Source of the DNA: an uncultured Verrucomicrobia subdivision 3 bacterium
GTDB taxonomy: Bacteria > Verrucomicrobiota > Verrucomicrobiia > Limisphaerales > UBA11358
Reading direction: 5' to 3'
Length of the DNA stretch: 64,000 bases
Assembly: GCA_903878805.1 (NCBI GenBank)
Contig: CAIRJF010000012.1
Span: 1 to 64,000, forward strand
Shown in pieces: positions 36,984 to 64,000 of this stretch (positions within the stretch are counted from its first letter, which is position 1; each line of letters opens with the position of its first letter). The notes beneath the pieces are model-generated. The model saw nothing but the letters and a program-made list of their open reading frames with translations, did not search any database and was not told the origin of the DNA. The position numbers and the translations under genes are program-made.

Positions 36984-37741
36984 ATCTTCCGTAAGGAACC
37001 GTCGGCTTGCATGGCTGCGACCAGATTAAAAATGTCGCGTTGCGCGCAAAACGCCACGTCGTCGCGCAGATCAGGATTCGCGAGCAGACGCTGGCCGTTT
37101 TCGGATGTGCCGATACTTTTCTCCAGATTCGTCAGCATGGCCTGCACATAAGCGGCGCGGGCAGCGGTCGAATTGGCGGACTTGCTTGCGTGTGTATTTT
37201 TGCCGGATGAAAGCAAATCCACCAGCGCGCCCGCCGCGATGATGTCTTCCGCCGCCGGATTTTCGCCCGTGCCGGCGCAGACGAGGAGAATTTCATTTTG
37301 CCCGCGCAGAAAATCCGCCGTGGCCGCGAGGTTCAGGAATGACGCGGCCAAAACGATTTTTGCTTTGGCGCACGCCTGCAATGCGCGTGTGCCGTTGGTC
37401 GTGGTGCTGACAATAATTTTTCCGCGCACGCGTTCCGGCGTGTATTCGCGAGGCGAATTGCCAAGATCGAAATCAATGCCGTTTGCAGAAATGCGGACGC
37501 CATTGCGCTCGCCGCCCAACAAAATCATTTCTGCCTTCTGCCTTCTGCCTTCTGCCTTTTTCCAGTCCAGCGCCTCGGCGATTTCGCTGACGGGGATGAT
37601 GGCTTGGGCGCCGTGGTGCAGCGCGGTCACAAACGTGCTGGTCGCGCGCAGCACGTCGAACACGACGCACGCGGTCGCGCGCAGATCGCGTTGGGCGAGC
37701 GCGGGCAATTCCGCCGGCGTCAGGATGGTTTCAATTTTCAT
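36980..37741 (-). CDS. comB: 2-phosphosulfolactate phosphatase ComB-like
   Basis: ACVVFDVLRATSTFVTALHHGAQAIIPV ... LLGGERNGVRI ... DLGNSPREYTPE ... STTTNGTRALQAC. Confidence 0.88.
   Translation of the reverse strand: MKIETILTPAELPALAQRDLRATACVVFDVLRATSTFVTALHHGAQAIIPVSEIAEALDWKKAEGRRQKAEMILLGGERNGVRISANGIDFDLGNSPREYTPERVRGKIIVSTTTNGTRALQACAKAKIVLAASFLNLAATADFLRGQNEILLVCAGTGENPAAEDIIAAGALVDLLSSGKNTHASKSANSTAARAAYVQAMLTNLEKSIGTSENGQRLLANPDLRDDVAFCAQRDIFNLVAAMQADGSLRKI
37529..37556 (-). repeat. (TTCTGCC)x4 heptanucleotide tandem repeat inside comB
   Basis: Four exact 7-bp units read directly; encodes the AEGRRQKAE stretch. Confidence 0.9.
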
Positions 37742-55377: not shown

Positions 55378-57126
55378 TTATGGCACTTTCAGGAGCACGC
55401 CGAGATACTGCGGCGTGAATGGTTGGATGTCGGCCGGCTGAACGCCTTGGATGGCTTCCAATTTAGGTCGGTCTTTTTCGCGCGCGACCAGATAAACCTG
55501 GTTGGAGCGCGCCGCAATCCAATGGTCAAAATTTGTGACGGCCACGAGGTTGGCCGGCCAGGCCGGGTCGTTCTTCAAGCGATACAAGATATAATTACTC
55601 GAACTGGTCAGCTCCCGGCCGTCCTTGGTGAAAAGGGTAGCGGTGCGGTTCAGGTAAAACGGCAGGCCGTTCGGAAAACATTCGAGAAAAGCCAGCTTGG
55701 TTTCCGGCGGCAGCGCTTGAATTTTTTGGGCCAACGGTCGCGCGGACTTATAATTAAAGACCGTTTCAATCGCATTAAGATTTAGCCCGAATAGCAGCGG
55801 TGGAAACACGGCAAAAATTACAAAGCAAAGTCCGGCGTCGCGGCGCGACCGCGCTAGCAACCCCAGTGCCGCAAACCCTGCCAGCAAAATAATCGGGATA
55901 AAAAAGTGATGGCCCAAATCTTCGGCCGTCGCCTGCGGAAGCCCCAGCGGCTTGGCGAGCGAACCCATGCGCGGTGCCAGGACTATCGCCGTCGTCATCA
56001 CCAGCAGGCACAAAATTGTAAACGTAATCGCCGAACGAAAAATAATCCTCGCGGCTTTCCCGTTCGGGTTCGCCATCGCCGTCTGAAAAAGCCGCGCGAG
56101 GAGAATGCCGCTGGCCACGGTCACGGTCAAAATGTAGCCGGGCAGTTTTGATTTTGAGAGCGAGAAAAAAATCACGACCACCACCGCCCAGACGACGCAC
56201 AACCGGTCGGCGGATGTCATGATTTTTTTATTTTTCCACGCCGCCACGCCCGCCTCGGGCAAAATAAAGCTCCACGGCAAAAACAGGCCGAGAATAATCA
56301 GCGCGTAGAAATAAAACGGCTGCGTGCGATGAAACGTCGTGGTCGTGAACCGGTGGAAGGATTCTTCGATCAGGCCGTAGTGGGGAAAGTCGGGGTGTTG
56401 CAGCGAAAGCCCGATGAACCACGGCAGCGTCACGCCGAAGAAAATCAGCAGGTTCAGCGGGGCGAAAAATCGTTGCCACACACCGACGCGACCTTCCACG
56501 CGATGAATCACGAACAGCACCAGACCAGGAAGCAGAAAGCCCACGGGTCCTTTCACGAGCGTCGCCAGACCCGCCGCCAGCGCGCCGAGCAGATACCAGT
56601 TCCGCCGGGATTTCCCATCACTTTCTTCAGCGAGATAACCGGCGAAAATTGCCGCCGTCACGAAGAACGCCAGCGTCATGTCGAAGATGACCGTGCGCGA
56701 GAACACGATGTAGAGCGGCATGGTCGCGATGATAGTGACCGCCATGACGCCACAGCGTGCGTCAAACACGTGACGACAAAAGGCAAAGGTTATTGCCAGC
56801 AAGGCCAGACCAAACAACGTCGAGGGCAGGCGCGCGGCAGTTTCATTGTTGCCAAACGCGGCGAGCGAGAGCGCGACGGTCTTGAAAAAAAATGCCGGTT
56901 TGTCGAGGTAGGTGATACCGTCGTAGGTGGGGGTTAGCCACGCGCCGGATTCCTTCATTTCGCGGGCGACCTCGGTGTTCCGGCCCTCATCGGGCTGGAG
57001 CAGCGGCAGGTTTCCGAGTTTGAAAATCAGGGCCAGCCCCACTACGGCCAGGGCGAGCAATATCCACGCGGTTTGTGATTTCGGAATTAAAGATGGACGA
57101 CGTGATTCGATGTGAATATATCGCAA
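55378..57126 (-). CDS. ArnT-like glycosyltransferase (GT39/83)
   Basis: LLQPDEGRNTEVAREMKESGAWLTPTYDGITYLDKPAFFF with multiple TM helices. Confidence 0.85.
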   Translation of the reverse strand: MRYIHIESRRPSLIPKSQTAWILLALAVVGLALIFKLGNLPLLQPDEGRNTEVAREMKESGAWLTPTYDGITYLDKPAFFFKTVALSLAAFGNNETAARLPSTLFGLALLAITFAFCRHVFDARCGVMAVTIIATMPLYIVFSRTVIFDMTLAFFVTAAIFAGYLAEESDGKSRRNWYLLGALAAGLATLVKGPVGFLLPGLVLFVIHRVEGRVGVWQRFFAPLNLLIFFGVTLPWFIGLSLQHPDFPHYGLIEESFHRFTTTTFHRTQPFYFYALIILGLFLPWSFILPEAGVAAWKNKKIMTSADRLCVVWAVVVVIFFSLSKSKLPGYILTVTVASGILLARLFQTAMANPNGKAARIIFRSAITFTILCLLVMTTAIVLAPRMGSLAKPLGLPQATAEDLGHHFFIPIILLAGFAALGLLARSRRDAGLCFVIFAVFPPLLFGLNLNAIETVFNYKSARPLAQKIQALPPETKLAFLECFPNGLPFYLNRTATLFTKDGRELTSSSNYILYRLKNDPAWPANLVAVTNFDHWIAARSNQVYLVAREKDRPKLEAIQGVQPADIQPFTPQYLGVLLKVP

Positions 57127-57231
57127 ATGTCTTTTGGTGAGGCAAGCTTATCCTATGATTTCCGCCGCCGAACCCGCGTTTTATTTTAATCTCTGTGCAC
57201 CATGCTCAAAAAACAATGACAGCGTCACTCT

Positions 57232-58014
57232 TTAATTCAGAAACGCCGTCAACGGACTTGTCGCGCTCGCCGTTTCACTTTGCGCGCCGAGGCCGATTTC
57301 AAAGGCCGCGCGCCCGGCTTCCACCGCGTGTTTGAACGCGATGCCCATGCGGTTCGGATCATTCGCCACGGCGATGGCGGTGTTCACCAGCACAGCGTCC
57401 GCGCCGAGTTCCATCGCCTCCGCCGCGTGGCTCGGCGCACCGATGCCGGCATCCACCACCACCGGCACCGTGGCTTGCTCAATAATGATTCTGATCTGGT
57501 CGCGCGTCTGGATGCCGCGATTCGAGCCGATGGGCGAACCGAGCGGCATCACCGTCGCGCAACCGACTTCCTGCAACCGTTTCGCCAGCACGGGATCGGC
57601 GTTGATGTAGGGCAGCACGGTGAAACCTTCCTTCACGAGAATCTCCGCCGCCTTGAACGTCTCAATCGGGTCCGGCAGCAGATAGCGCGGGTCAGGATGG
57701 ATTTCGAGCTTCACCCATTTCGGCAGACCGGCGGCGACGGCGAGGCGCGCGAGGCGGACGGCTTCTTCGGCGTTCATCGCGCCGCTGGTGTTGGGCAGGA
57801 GTAGATATTTTTTCGGGTCAATGAATTCGAGGATGTTCGCGAACGGATCTTTTTTGCCCGACAAATCCGCGCGGCGCAACGCGACGGTGACCATTTCCGT
57901 GCCGCTGGCGGCGAGCGCATCGCGCATGGCTTCCGGCGACGGAAATTTTCCCGTGCCGAGAATCAGGCGCGAACCGAACGTGCGTCCGGCGATGACCAAA
58001 GGTTTGAACGACAT
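57232..58014 (-). CDS. thiG: thiazole synthase
   Basis: [33 protein letters not shown]...[30 protein letters not shown]. Confidence 0.95.
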
Positions 58015-58120
58015 TCGGGACAATTTAGAAAATTGCGGCGAATTGTCGAGGCAGGATGCGGGAACAACGAACCACGCCAACGGCGGTTGGCTCCGGCGAC
58101 TGGTTAGGCCACATGGTCAT

Positions 58121-58366
58121 TTACAAAAGCCCTCCTGAATCTCCACCGACATAATCTCTCTGTCGCGCTGCAATCTTCCGCTCTTTCTCGTCCGCCGCAA
58201 GTCTGGCCTGACGCTCTGCTACTACCGCCGTCTCTTTTTTATCCAAATCCTCAAGCTCTGCCGCACTAAACAGTAACTCCGGCGGCAACTCTGCGCCACA
58301 ATAACCACACGTCTTGAGGCGTCGGTTGTAAATCACTCCACTGCATTTTGGACATTGGTAACTCAT
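58121..58366 (-). CDS. zinc-ribbon hypothetical protein
   Basis: MSYQCPKCSGVIYNRRLKTCGYCGAELPPELLFSAAEL. Confidence 0.65.
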   Translation of the reverse strand: MSYQCPKCSGVIYNRRLKTCGYCGAELPPELLFSAAELEDLDKKETAVVAERQARLAADEKERKIAARQRDYVGGDSGGLL

Positions 58367-58512
58367 AAGGCGTAATGTGGCCTAACTATGTATTCGACCG
58401 TAGTGCGTGCACGACCCAGTGCACAGATGATTTCACTTCGGCCTTTATTAACCATGGTTCAATGAAAGCGGACGGGCGAATTGCTGTCAAAGATTATTCC
58501 CGTCAGTAAATT

Positions 58513-59142
58513 TCACTTCACCCGCACACTCGCCAGTTGGCTCCACGCGCTGGCGCCGTGGGCGTTGGTGGCGCGGACGCGGAACCAGTATTTCGCGCCG
58601 CTGACCAAGCCTTTCACCAGACACTTTTGCGGGAAGCTGGTGTCTTCGTGCTGCCAATGGTCGGCGGCCGGCGGGTCGGTGTGCCACTGAATCTCAAACG
58701 CGCAACGGCGCAGGGTGCGTTGCCAGCGGAGTTGCGCCTCGCCCTCGTTATCCGTGGGGACTGCGCGAAGATTCGTCGGGGCGTCGGGCAGGCCGACGGG
58801 GGTGCGCGTCTGCTTGGCGAGTTCCAAACCGGCCGCTTGCATCGCGGCGGGATCATACTTCGTGACGAGGGAAATTCCTTGCGCTGTGCCGGTGGCCGCC
58901 GTGCGCAAATTAGCGAGGTGCGTGTTGCGGTGGGTTATCTCCGACTTCAATTCCGCGCGCAACGTGGCGATGCGCAGATGACTCGCGCGGGCGGCGGCGG
59001 TGTGCGCGCGCAAATCCTCGAGCCGCGTGACCTTCTGCTTGTGTTCCGTGGGCATAGAATCGGCGGCGGTGACGAGGCGCTCGCCCATCGTAATCTGTTC
59101 GAGATGATTTTTATTCCGGAAATCGAGTTTGTGAGCTTGCAT
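58513..59142 (-). CDS. fibronectin type III domain protein
   Basis: DAPTNLRAVPTDNEGEAQLRWQR...GLVSGAKYWFRVRATNAHGASAWSQLASVRVK. Confidence 0.75.
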   Translation of the reverse strand: MQAHKLDFRNKNHLEQITMGERLVTAADSMPTEHKQKVTRLEDLRAHTAAARASHLRIATLRAELKSEITHRNTHLANLRTAATGTAQGISLVTKYDPAAMQAAGLELAKQTRTPVGLPDAPTNLRAVPTDNEGEAQLRWQRTLRRCAFEIQWHTDPPAADHWQHEDTSFPQKCLVKGLVSGAKYWFRVRATNAHGASAWSQLASVRVK

Positions 59143-59190
59143 AAGTGATGTCTTCGTCTTGGCACCGAGGAAAATGACCGTGCCGGTTAC

Positions 59191-59566
59191 CGTTTAAGCC
59201 ATAAAACACGGTTTTATGGTGATAAAGCAAAGAAAACACGTCATGGCGTCGAACAATTATGTTTCAAAATATAAAATAGAGCCAAAAAGTTGTCAATCAA
59301 AAGCATGGCGACGAGATTAAAATGATTCAAAAAGTGAAATAGCAACAAAGATGCGAGGAAACAACGTCAGGCTACGAGGTAAATAGGTTTCAAAACCAGA
59401 AAATGAAATATAATCCTGAAACTTCCTAGCATGGATACGAAACAAAAACATCTCTAAAACAAAAATAGAGACAAAATAATGACGTTGCCTATTTATGGAA
59501 CGATGCAAATAGGTTTCTAAATTAGAAAATGAGCCATTAAAACGTTGTGCGAAAGCCTAAAAAGGT
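59191..59566 (-). repeat. diverged ~63-bp periodic array, AT-rich
   Basis: Five 23-bp blocks starting at 59261, 59324, 59387, 59450, 59513 (exactly 63 bp apart) plus CATGGnnACGA-type blocks ending at 59252, 59314, 59377, 59440, 59503. Confidence 0.85.
59199..59219. other. perfect hairpin CCATAAAAC-ACG-GTTTTATGG
   Basis: 9-bp perfect stem, 3-nt loop, about 57 bp upstream of the FN3 gene start. Confidence 0.8.
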
Positions 59567-59870
59567 CGTGATTAAGTCTGGATATTGCGGGTGGAAGTCG
59601 GCGGACGAGGTTTTAAGGTCAGGCCACGGCGGGGGCAAGCGATGGGGTTTAAGCGCGTGATGATGACTTGGCAAAGTTTCATCATGGCGGCGATGGCGAT
59701 TCCCTCTCCCCGTCCAAATATGGCGTGGGTAAGGAAGCGGGGAGCTAAAAGATAATCCGGTTTGACCTCCTCACCCCGGCCCTTTCCTCCTTTGGGGGAG
59801 GCGAGGGGGGAAGAAAGGTTGCCCGCCAGTCATGCGGTCACGCGCGCAAATCATTCCCGCCTTATCCGTG

Positions 59871-60332
59871 TTTCATCTGTGCCTATCTGTGGCGAAAAAT
59901 TTCCGCCGCAACTTTACGCGGGCAATTGCGAAAAGCGGTAGAGGGCTACCGCACTCCAAGACGCTGACGCGCGGATCGAGGATGGCGAAAACGCAGAGCG
60001 TCTGGGAGTGCTCCAGCCCTCTGGAGCTTGGTCAGGACGCGCTCTGGTATCGGCAACGTGATTTACCAAAGACCAACGGACCGTCTTTTCCAAAATCTAT
60101 GTTTCATCTGTGCCTATCGGTGGCGAAAAATTTCCGCCGCAACTTTACGCGGGCAATTGCGAAAAGCGGTAGAGGGCTACCGCACTCCAAGACGCTGACG
60201 CGCGGATCGAGGGTGGCGAAAACGCAGAGCGTCTGGGAGTGCTCCAGCCCTCTGGAGCTTGGTCAGGACGCGCTTTGGTATCGGCAACGTGATTTACCAA
60301 AGACCAACGGACCGTCTTTTCCAAAATCTATG
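59871..60332. repeat. 231-bp tandem direct duplication, two near-identical copies (plus start of a third)
   Basis: TTTCATCTGT starts at 59871, 60102 and 60333; copies 59871-60101 and 60102-60332 differ at about three positions seen by eye. Confidence 0.9.
59940..60022. repeat. imperfect inverted repeat (REP/MITE-like hairpin) within each 231-bp unit
   Basis: AGAGGGCTACCGCACTCCAAGACGCT (59940-59965) vs reverse complement of 59997-60022: 22/26; second copy at +231. Confidence 0.8.
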
Positions 60333-60361
60333 TTTCATCTGTGCCCAGCGGTGGCGAGCCA

Positions 60362-63274
60362 TCACGGCTTCACCGTGACGTGGTCGAACAACGTGGAGTT
60401 CAGCACGGCGTTGTTGTGCGCGGTGAGCGCGAGGCCGATGGAAAGATTTTTGTTCAGCACATTGGTCACGCTGCCGGCGGTGATCCAGTTCGTGCCATCG
60501 GCGGAAACGTAACCACTGAAGAGATGGCCGTTGCGGATGAGCTTGAGCCAGTGCGGGAGTTTCGCTTCGGGGCCGTCGGCGCTCGCGCTCGCGCCATCGG
60601 TGGTGGCGCGGGATTGCAACACGGAACCGCCCTGGCCGGTGACGCCGAGGAAAACATATTTCGCCCCGGCGGCATCATTCTCGCGCAGCATCACGCCGGC
60701 TTTCGCCCACGGGTCGGTGTATTGCACGGACACCACGTGCGCGATGATGCTGCCATCGCCGCTCATCGGGTGGCTGGCAAAATGAAAGGCGTCGGCGTTC
60801 TCCCAGATGTCGCTGCCGGAGGCGAGGAGGTTGTAGCCGTCGTTGACAAAACTGGCGTCGCCGCTTACACCGACGTTGCCGATGTCCGCATCGCTCCAGC
60901 CTTTGGGCAAGGTGGGCGCGTTGGCGTGCAGGGTGGCAATCCATTTGGCGATGACGGCAACGGCTTTGTCGTCCACGACATTCTTGCCGAGCGGCGGCAT
61001 CTGGTTTTCGCCCACGCGACTGACGCGATAGAACAGAATGGATTTATTCGTGTCGCCGGGAACAATGACTTTCGCGCCGGCAATGCCGAGTTGATTGGCG
61101 ACCGCGCCGTTGATGAGATTTTGTTTCTTGAGCGGCGTCTCGAAGCGCGCATCAAAGAACGCTCCAGCACCGCCGGGGCGATGGCACATGGAGCAATTGG
61201 CGTCGAGGTAGGAGCGGACGCGGAGCTGGAGAGCGGCGCTGGCGTTCGTGATGTTGACGAGTTTGGGATAGCGGAAGATTTTGCGGTCGTCGAACGCGGC
61301 GTCGAACAGTCCGAGATGGCCGAGCGTGTGGAGTTGATTCGCCGTGACGCCGTTCGGATAGGTGTAGTTGCCATTGAGCTGGCGCGTCTTGAGGCCGAGC
61401 ACGCCGCCGGAAGCAATCGTGTGGCAGGTCAAACAATCCTGGCGGCCGGGATAAAACCAGTTCTGCGTGCGCGTGCCGGTGGCGGTCTTAATCTCAATCG
61501 GCTCGGTGAGGCCGCTGGTGACGAGGTCGGCATCGCTGTTGTCCGCGCGCCATTTGTAGCTCGCACCGTAAACGTAGTTGTTCGTGTCGCGCACCATGAT
61601 GCGCGTTTCGAGGCGGCGGAGGATTTGCGGATTCGTGTCGTCCACGGGCAAGTCGAAGTTTTTCACGAACACGGAGCCGGCGGGGAAGGTCCATTCGCCA
61701 TTTGCGGAAAAGTTGATGACGGTGTTCGTCGGAATCGTGAACCAGCGTGACTTGATAGCGCCATCCGACCACAACGGCGAGTTGGGCGCGTAGGGAATCA
61801 GATAATTCGCCGGCACGAGATTCGTGAGGTCGGAGAACAAACCGGTTTGCGAAATCAATTTTGGCAAAACTTTGGTCGGTGGTGGCGGGCCGCCGCGTTG
61901 CAGCTTGTAAATCTTCCCACCGATGCTGCTCATCTGGCAGAAGTAAAGTTCGCCATTCGCATCCGTGCCGAAAGAAGAAAGGCCGTTGTAATCCGTGCCG
62001 GCGTTCGGGCCGTTGCCGCGCGGCATGACGCAGAGGAGAGTTTTTTTGACGGGCGTCGCGGTCTCGTCGAGCGCCCAAACGGTGCGCATGACGTTGTCGC
62101 CGAAAATATATTTGCCGCCAAGATCGTGGGCGAATTCCTGTCCGCGATAAACGTAGCCGCCGATGACGGCGCGACCATCGGTGTGCGGATAATCGAGCAA
62201 CGGCCCGCGACTGATGCCGAGGTAAGGCGCGGTCAGCTTGCCGAGATTGCCTTCGCAGCGGTTCCACTGAAAGTTCAGCGCGGACTCGCCGGGATTGATG
62301 ACGTCAATTTCTTCGCGCGAACTTTCGCCGACGTCGCCGATGAAAATCTTTCCGCTCGGCGGATCAATCGTCATGCGATGCGGACTGCGCAAGCCGAGAC
62401 AAAAGAATTCCTCCAGCACATTGGATTGACCGACGAAGGGATTATCGTTCGGGACGAAATAATTTGCCGTGAAGCCGCCCGTCGGCTGGCGCGGCGGTGC
62501 GTGGCTCACGTCGCCACCGCGACAATCCACATCAATGCGGAAGACGCCGGAGTAAAGACTCTTGTTGATGATCTGGTCGTTGTCGCCCACGGAATTATCA
62601 CCGTCCGTCCAATACAGAAAACCATTCGTTGGATGAAAGAACATGCCGCCGCCGTGATGCCAGACGGTTTGATTCGTGAGGTCCACGAAGATTTTTACGG
62701 AATCGAGAATCGCGACGCCGTTCGCATCGAGCGTGTAGCGTTCAAGGCGGTCGTGATAGGTGTCGGGCAAATTGGGAACGGGCCGTGACGTCGGCGAGCC
62801 GGCGACCGTGCCGGGTTTCACCCAAGTATAATAGACGAACATGAAATGGTTCGTCGCGAAGCCGGGATGAAACGCCACGCCGAGCAAACCGGAATCGTCC
62901 CAGCCCTGACATTGATCGTGGATGTCGAGAACGAGTTTCTTCTCGGTGACACCGGAAGCATTATCAAACGTCCACACGCGGCCTTCGCGTTCCCACACGC
63001 AGAGTTGATTGGAATCGGGAACGTGCGTGAGGCCGACGCTGTTCGTGAAAAAAAGATTCGTGAACGCGACGACCGCCGACCAGTTGCCGGAAATGGCGGG
63101 CGCGACTTCGGGCATGACGCCATTGAGAAACGCGCCGATGGCGGGGCGATTGGCGAGAGCGAAAGTTTTATTGGCGATGACGGCGGCAGGTTTTGCCCCG
63201 GCGGATAAAAAGAAACTGACCATCAAAATGAGGGACAGCAGCCATTGGCGATTTTTGAGGAACGATTTGATCAC
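60362..63274 (-). CDS. PQQ-type sugar (glucose/sorbosone) dehydrogenase-like beta-propeller with two CxxCH motifs and C-terminal ConA/DUF1349-like domain
   Basis: LLGVAFHPGFATNHFMFVYYT; GDVGESSREEIDVINPGESALNFQWNRCEG; CLTCHT and CSMCH; C-terminal SGDGSIIAHVVSVQYTDPWAKAGVMLREN. Confidence 0.85.
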   Translation of the reverse strand: MIKSFLKNRQWLLSLILMVSFFLSAGAKPAAVIANKTFALANRPAIGAFLNGVMPEVAPAISGNWSAVVAFTNLFFTNSVGLTHVPDSNQLCVWEREGRVWTFDNASGVTEKKLVLDIHDQCQGWDDSGLLGVAFHPGFATNHFMFVYYTWVKPGTVAGSPTSRPVPNLPDTYHDRLERYTLDANGVAILDSVKIFVDLTNQTVWHHGGGMFFHPTNGFLYWTDGDNSVGDNDQIINKSLYSGVFRIDVDCRGGDVSHAPPRQPTGGFTANYFVPNDNPFVGQSNVLEEFFCLGLRSPHRMTIDPPSGKIFIGDVGESSREEIDVINPGESALNFQWNRCEGNLGKLTAPYLGISRGPLLDYPHTDGRAVIGGYVYRGQEFAHDLGGKYIFGDNVMRTVWALDETATPVKKTLLCVMPRGNGPNAGTDYNGLSSFGTDANGELYFCQMSSIGGKIYKLQRGGPPPPTKVLPKLISQTGLFSDLTNLVPANYLIPYAPNSPLWSDGAIKSRWFTIPTNTVINFSANGEWTFPAGSVFVKNFDLPVDDTNPQILRRLETRIMVRDTNNYVYGASYKWRADNSDADLVTSGLTEPIEIKTATGTRTQNWFYPGRQDCLTCHTIASGGVLGLKTRQLNGNYTYPNGVTANQLHTLGHLGLFDAAFDDRKIFRYPKLVNITNASAALQLRVRSYLDANCSMCHRPGGAGAFFDARFETPLKKQNLINGAVANQLGIAGAKVIVPGDTNKSILFYRVSRVGENQMPPLGKNVVDDKAVAVIAKWIATLHANAPTLPKGWSDADIGNVGVSGDASFVNDGYNLLASGSDIWENADAFHFASHPMSGDGSIIAHVVSVQYTDPWAKAGVMLRENDAAGAKYVFLGVTGQGGSVLQSRATTDGASASADGPEAKLPHWLKLIRNGHLFSGYVSADGTNWITAGSVTNVLNKNLSIGLALTAHNNAVLNSTLFDHVTVKP

Positions 63275-63364
63275 AACCGGAACGCGTTAAGTTTCCCCGC
63301 TGCGCGCCCGCCGTCAAACTTTTATGTTTCACAATTTACCATCGACAGATGGATCGGGTGATAA

Positions 63365-64000
63365 TTATTGCGAAGGCGTGCCGTCGTAAGCCCAATTGAT
63401 GTCCGGGTTGCCAGGATCGCCAATCTTGGTGCCCTTCGCGTAGGCCAGATAGGTGTATTTGAAATAAGCGGAGTGGCCGTCGAGGAATGTCAGGTTGGCG
63501 CCGGCGGCGTGGCGCGCGGAGAGATGGTTGAGCGAGCCGCGGGCGGCACCGAGATCGTTGAGCGGGTTCGCGCCGTAAAACGGTTTCTCGCCGGAGTTGG
63601 CGCGGACATCGGAAAAAAAGACAAAGGCCGAGGAATGCAACACCATGGTGGCCTTGAAGGGAGAACCGGCGGGCGTCGCGCCGTTGGTGCCTTTGAAATT
63701 TATCCCGTAACTGAACGCCACCCGATTCAGCGGATCCACATTATCGGCGGGCAGGAAACGCGCGGCGGGGCAATTGAAAATGCTTTGGCCATTCACGAAG
63801 TTGGTGGGGTTGGCGGCGTATTGCCAAAGGGCATTTTGCGAGACATACGCCGGCAGGACGTTAAACCAGGCGCTATTTCCGTAGCCGGCGGCGGCAAAAC
63901 CGGCGAGGTCAGTCCAAAGAAGATTGTCCTGATCATAACCGCTGCGGGCTCCGGGCGTGTTGTTGGCGATGCTGAAATCAGGAAAAATCTGATTGTTGTC
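63365..64000 (-). CDS. prepilin-type (DUF1559/H-X9-DG-like) protein, N-terminus beyond window
   Basis: ORF frame is open to the window edge (DNNQIFPDFSIANNTPGARSGYDQDNLLWTDLAGF...); C-terminal ARHAAGANLTFLDGHSAYFKY. Confidence 0.7.
   Translation of the reverse strand, partial: DNNQIFPDFSIANNTPGARSGYDQDNLLWTDLAGFAAAGYGNSAWFNVLPAYVSQNALWQYAANPTNFVNGQSIFNCPAARFLPADNVDPLNRVAFSYGINFKGTNGATPAGSPFKATMVLHSSAFVFFSDVRANSGEKPFYGANPLNDLGAARGSLNHLSARHAAGANLTFLDGHSAYFKYTYLAYAKGTKIGDPGNPDINWAYDGTPSQ

Follow-up and report, generated by a model that had tools for sequence, protein, structure and literature searches.

The intergenic tract that adjoins an FN3-family gene in the window (the whole 64,000-nucleotide stretch of DNA analysed here) probably belongs, as a diverged example, to a class of intergenic DNA arrays of Verrucomicrobiota that, judging from their sequences, would carry helically phased candidate sites for one or more dimeric DNA-binding proteins. 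The array is detectable as a 21-bp lattice at 59216..59642 (positions 1001-1427 of the window locus, L002, converted to window coordinates), comprising about 20 slots with a weak distal end and a dyad-symmetric profile (p=0.002). What the sequences themselves show is a lattice of dyads that retained its spacing as sequence similarity was lost, a link to FN3 genes and no coding or hairpin signature.

An earlier note on this DNA had described five 23-bp blocks spaced 63 bp apart, and we found all five at the positions given there: site 1 (GTTTCAAAATATAAAATAGAGCC, 59261..59283), the degenerate site 2 (GATTCAAAAAGTGAAATAGCAAC, 59324..59346), site 3 (GTTTCAAAACCAGAAAATGAAAT, 59387..59409), which keeps the 63-bp register and is the most decayed, site 4 (ATCTCTAAAACAAAAATAGAGAC, 59450..59472) and site 5 (GTTTCTAAATTAGAAAATGAGCC, 59513..59535). 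Over 59261-59575 the identity at lag 63 was 0.536 and at lag 126 0.540, compared to 0.305 (sd 0.028) in shuffled sequence, and none of 3000 dinucleotide-preserving shuffles matched the lag-63 identity of the array when all lags from 10 to 129 were checked. Summed across all unit pairs, identity amounted to 333/630 versus 192 (sd 11) after shuffling, where the maximum was 230. Hence the 63-bp period is real and the self-similarity at this lag significant, although the basic quantum of the array turned out to be 21 bp and not 63. The units of the window are approximately 53% alike and are separated by zero indels over 315 bp. The tract is also markedly AT-rich, as the note had said, with a GC content of 0.33-0.35 versus 0.55-0.65 around it.

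A further palindrome, CCATAAAACACGGTTTTATGG (59199..59219), occupies the next lattice slot towards the FN3 gene and is centred at 59209, 63 bp away from site 1 (centre 59272); it differs from the 23-bp blocks, and the array is thus one unit longer at the FN3 side. A secondary conserved block, CATGGnnACGA with variants, was read directly at 59242..59503, about two 21-bp slots past each site, and corresponds to the conserved columns 51-54 of the 63-bp unit. Most units contain this block, which has a one-base shift in the partial unit at 59198. With units only ~53% alike, the array was absent from the Tandem Repeats Finder output for the window. The same program reported two other repeats, namely a 231-bp unit present 2.1 times at 98% identity at 59869-60357, a recent duplication in the interval from the array to the next gene, and a perfect heptamer run of TTCTGCC (4.3 copies) at 37529-37558.

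The FN3-family gene adjoining the array (58513..59142, minus strand) encodes a protein of 209 aa that matches PF00041 (E=3e-8). In an AlphaFold2 model with a mean pLDDT of 71, in which residues 1-30 fall below 50 and are unreliable, a long helix (residues 32-95) is followed by a fibronectin type III domain, and no evident DNA-binding fold was seen when the model was viewed by eye. Searches of the protein against Pfam, PHROGs and NCBIfam returned general FN3 or tail-protein matches only, and a protein search of phages and plasmids gave no match. At 21 loci (e.g., L012, L015, and L029), a recurrent, tail-fibre-like neighbour with a start resembling MAFDPTKPADHAQIVSAELRNQFNGL was observed downstream of the FN3 genes, and the FN3 proteins of L011, L012, L029, and L031 carry an N-terminal leader of the YDTPGLTYDSGVLYDD type. 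From the neighbours and the fold, we would guess that the FN3 family is adhesin-like.

Arrays related to that of the window are present in sister genomes, contrary to one of the outcomes that the note had named as refuting its observation, and homologues of the FN3 gene there have upstream arrays with lags that are multiples of 21 bp. Among 56 distinct FN3-family loci, which are related and thus not statistically independent, a clear 21-bp array was found upstream in 42, a 20-bp array in one and a 22-bp array in one, while 12 were without a clear array, some owing to the short stretch available; most of the genomes are drafts and the array-calling thresholds were fixed during the work. The FN3-linked arrays are 147-420 bp long and end at variable distances from the gene, 36-597 bp before the start of the FN3 domain (median ~190). 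The sequence of the unit varies among loci. L005, which is syntenic with the window locus and has the same thiG-like neighbour, carries a unit unrelated to that of the window except for one GGTGCTA palindrome, and as far as the two sequences tell, position and period are retained while the sequence is lost.

The 23-bp blocks themselves proved to be degenerate copies of a palindrome, GGYKCTA-N9-TAGMRCC, that is present in the arrays of six relatives. When a weight matrix built from the relatives only was run over the 64-kb window, site 1 (14.9 bits), site 5 (9.8 bits), site 4 (6.6 bits), and site 2 (3.4 bits) were ranked 1 to 4 in this order, and site 3 came at rank 243, not scoring as a site when taken alone. 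The form GGYGCTA-N9-TAGCRCC (third base Y or A) has 12 strict copies in 2.3 Mb, all of them belonging to arrays of related species that lie near FN3 genes, and a search of 117 relatives revealed further arrays with the palindrome, several of which lie away from FN3 genes. In the scanned arrays of the six relatives, the strict pattern GGNNCTA-N9-TAGNNCC gave 35 sites, at most 17 of them in one genome (G007), and neighboring sites were 63, 84, 105 or 126 bp apart, 23 of the 24 spacings being multiples of 21; the exception is a 50-bp spacing in L224. Motifs are also shared between arrays of one genome. GGYKCTA is common to four G007 loci, two G017 loci (L085 and L223) have a motif of the TTTCCCA...TGGGAAA type in common, and in the source genome a TTCCCT...AGGGAA motif occurs both at L061, which has an FN3 gene, and at L105, which does not. 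In L223, a single GGCGCTA palindrome fills one slot and the lattice continues unbroken on both sides with no phase shift. Such sharing of motifs suggests either that each motif class has its own trans-acting factor or that arrays have been copied. A search for a regulon, in which the motifs were sought as single sites outside arrays, yielded them at about the frequency expected by chance.

Dyad symmetry of the unit, measured as the profile against its own reverse complement with column-permuted controls, was significant (p<0.05) in 34 of 40 arrays. The earlier note had offered a decaying repeat protein with 21-residue units as one reading, and since 21 and 63 are divisible by three, some arrays contain an open frame and the array of L007 runs in frame into its FN3 gene, a protein built of 21-residue or 7-residue units deserved consideration. 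One minus-strand frame does show [LF]E[TMS] every 21 residues, which is a consequence of the DNA period; this frame, like every other frame in the window tract, contains stops. In addition, 0 of 38 arrays had codon-position bias among their units at p<0.05, which largely refutes a protein repeat, and arrays with units of 20 or 22 bp exist (L011, L196, and L066), so that we regard this explanation as extremely improbable. In L066 the 22-bp array (1068-1368, oriented) is composed of two alternating unit types.

The RNA array that the note had also considered, or a 5′ leader, would account for the many hairpin-capable units and for the window tract folding slightly better than shuffled sequence (z -2.1). 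Covariation across the dyads was, however, slight, the mean z of 0.34 (se 0.13, 68 axes, 4% above 2) being small yet greater than zero, and window positions 57000-64000 matched no Rfam model at E values up to 1. Half-site pairing in the strict sites of the six relatives (48/70) did not differ from within-genome shuffles (45.3, sd 3.2; p=0.25). With no clear compensatory pairing and with arrays adjoining genes of any orientation, we find an RNA element very improbable. Unlike half-sites combine freely, e.g., GGCGCTA with TAGAACC, as would be expected if protein subunits read the half-sites independently. The combination of dyads, no codon pattern and hardly any covariation thus favors protein-read DNA sites over coding sequence or RNA hairpins. 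Simple intrinsic bending by A-tracts was considered as well and rejected, since the AT content oscillates at 21 or 10.5 bp hardly more than expected.

A census of the source genome (1.96 Mb, 86%) showed that its clear non-coding arrays all have the 21-bp quantum except for one of 20 bp, corresponding to about eight arrays per 2 Mb. A coding repeat of 42 bp, reading approximately YQTYGQTPTTTVPG per unit on the reverse strand as judged by eye, was seen at positions 1-310 of L131, at the end of contig C31 of this genome. Arrays without FN3 genes were located between convergent genes (L105, L198, and L223), between co-directional genes (L196, L195, L182, L207, L222, and L226) and between divergent genes (L224 and L225), the genes having been called by ourselves on the basis of reading frame and codon composition; the array of L198 overlaps a reading frame, yet sits in the gap between its convergent neighbors. 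Arrays are therefore not confined to FN3 genes, although they are strongly enriched there, and since they are found in gaps of all orientations, a promoter-only role is unlikely for all of them. The FN3-negative relative G001 had no non-coding arrays in 324 kb, where one or two would be expected at the density of the source genome, so this observation carries little weight.

Plasmid Rep iterons, ParR/parC repeats and tandem operators are examples of iteron or phased operator arrays, in which tandem sites of ~20 bp are spaced by whole helical turns and are apparently read by dimers. Direct repeats at whole helical turns were likewise found here, both in the 42 of 56 FN3-family loci and in the strict-site spacings. 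In contrast to iterons, the present arrays are chromosomal and intergenic, several occur per genome, the unit is private to the array or motif class, and no Rep or Par gene was seen alongside, but often an FN3 gene. CRISPR arrays share the regular spacing, whereas the present arrays have a 21-bp quantum and units that are all related and degenerate, with no unique spacers. A CRISPR array was rejected for the window tract, as its units are 53% alike, its conserved columns extend across both halves of the unit and there is no division into repeat and spacer. An apparent CRISPR with a period of ~66 bp and a repeat containing GCCGCACCCGAATTTGGAATCAAGGCAAAGC lies at ~13104-14500 of L228, where the same scan picks up a harmonic at ~66 bp.

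A resemblance is also seen to REP/BIME elements, extragenic palindromes that are dispersed by a Y1 (RAYT) transposase or a similar enzyme, in which case the arrays would be clusters of palindromes. REPs are reported to exceed 100 copies per genome and to form clusters, often with regular spacing and alternating orientation (PMC2817692). Our palindromes are extragenic and clustered regularly too, several motif classes occur per genome and are shared within it, some clusters lie between convergent genes, and Y1 transposase domains (PF01797 above cut-off) were present in G000 (two), G017 (five), and G003 (one); none was detected in G007, a weak absence given that this genome is a 91%-complete draft of ~350 contigs. 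On the other hand, the palindromes are low in copy number (the 35 strict sites above, with few pattern hits elsewhere in 117 genomes), mostly in arrays and diverse in sequence, their hairpin pairing is not clearly conserved, and the 21-bp lattice runs on through the motif change in L223, making REP/BIME-like spread an unlikely origin. We hold a similarly low opinion of neutral, functionless minisatellites that arose by replication slippage with the 21-bp unit as a quirk of the mechanism, even though the arrays of L073 and L077 are nearly homogeneous and apparently expanded recently, and although the unit sequence differs at most loci, that of the syntenic L005 included. Slippage alone predicts neither dyad symmetry nor one genome-wide quantum, nor does it predict sites that recur at 63, 84 or 105 bp while the DNA between them differs, and the window units have diverged to 53% identity with no indels. 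A chromosome-organising or partition site, i.e., a centromere-like or loop-anchoring array with no gene-regulatory function, would agree with some eight arrays in 2 Mb, with the length of the FN3-linked arrays and with the occurrence of non-FN3 arrays in gaps of every orientation, convergent ones included. Since it does not explain why the arrays strongly favour a single gene family (42/56 loci) and is difficult to reconcile with several motif classes per genome, we consider such a site to be quite doubtful.

The reading that we prefer is that of phased protein-binding sites. Each array would be a lattice of dyad-symmetric sites placed every two helical turns (21 bp), a spacing that puts all sites on the same face of the helix. 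One or several proteins that bind DNA sequence-specifically as dimers may occupy the sites, stacking side by side on one face of the DNA into a nucleoprotein filament or wrap. With less certainty, we suggest that such a complex, where it lies ahead of FN3 genes, might set or insulate their transcription. The chance-level frequency of isolated sites counts against this explanation, being unlike most transcription-factor regulons, and the variable distance between array and FN3 gene together with the arrays between convergent genes argue against a plain promoter operator. The reading of the earlier note as a regulatory or structured array, diverged in sequence at a strictly kept spacing, is supported as far as DNA is concerned. 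A broader proposal, which is possible but which we put forward only tentatively, is that the arrays constitute an element class defined by geometry and not by sequence, i.e., two-turn-phased dyad lattices with their own protein for each motif class, a phylum-wide link to adhesin-like FN3 genes and change of motif at kept phase.

The array class is apparently undescribed, as none of the open-literature results listed in our searches describes such arrays. Standard tools can miss these arrays because their spacing is conserved while their sequence is not, as seen from the blank results of Tandem Repeats Finder and Rfam for the array of the window. If the tract is indeed a protein-binding array, it would represent a widespread nucleoprotein system in these genomes that has been easy to overlook, it would offer a direct test of selection on helical phase alone, and it may provide a clue to how the multi-copy FN3 gene family is controlled.
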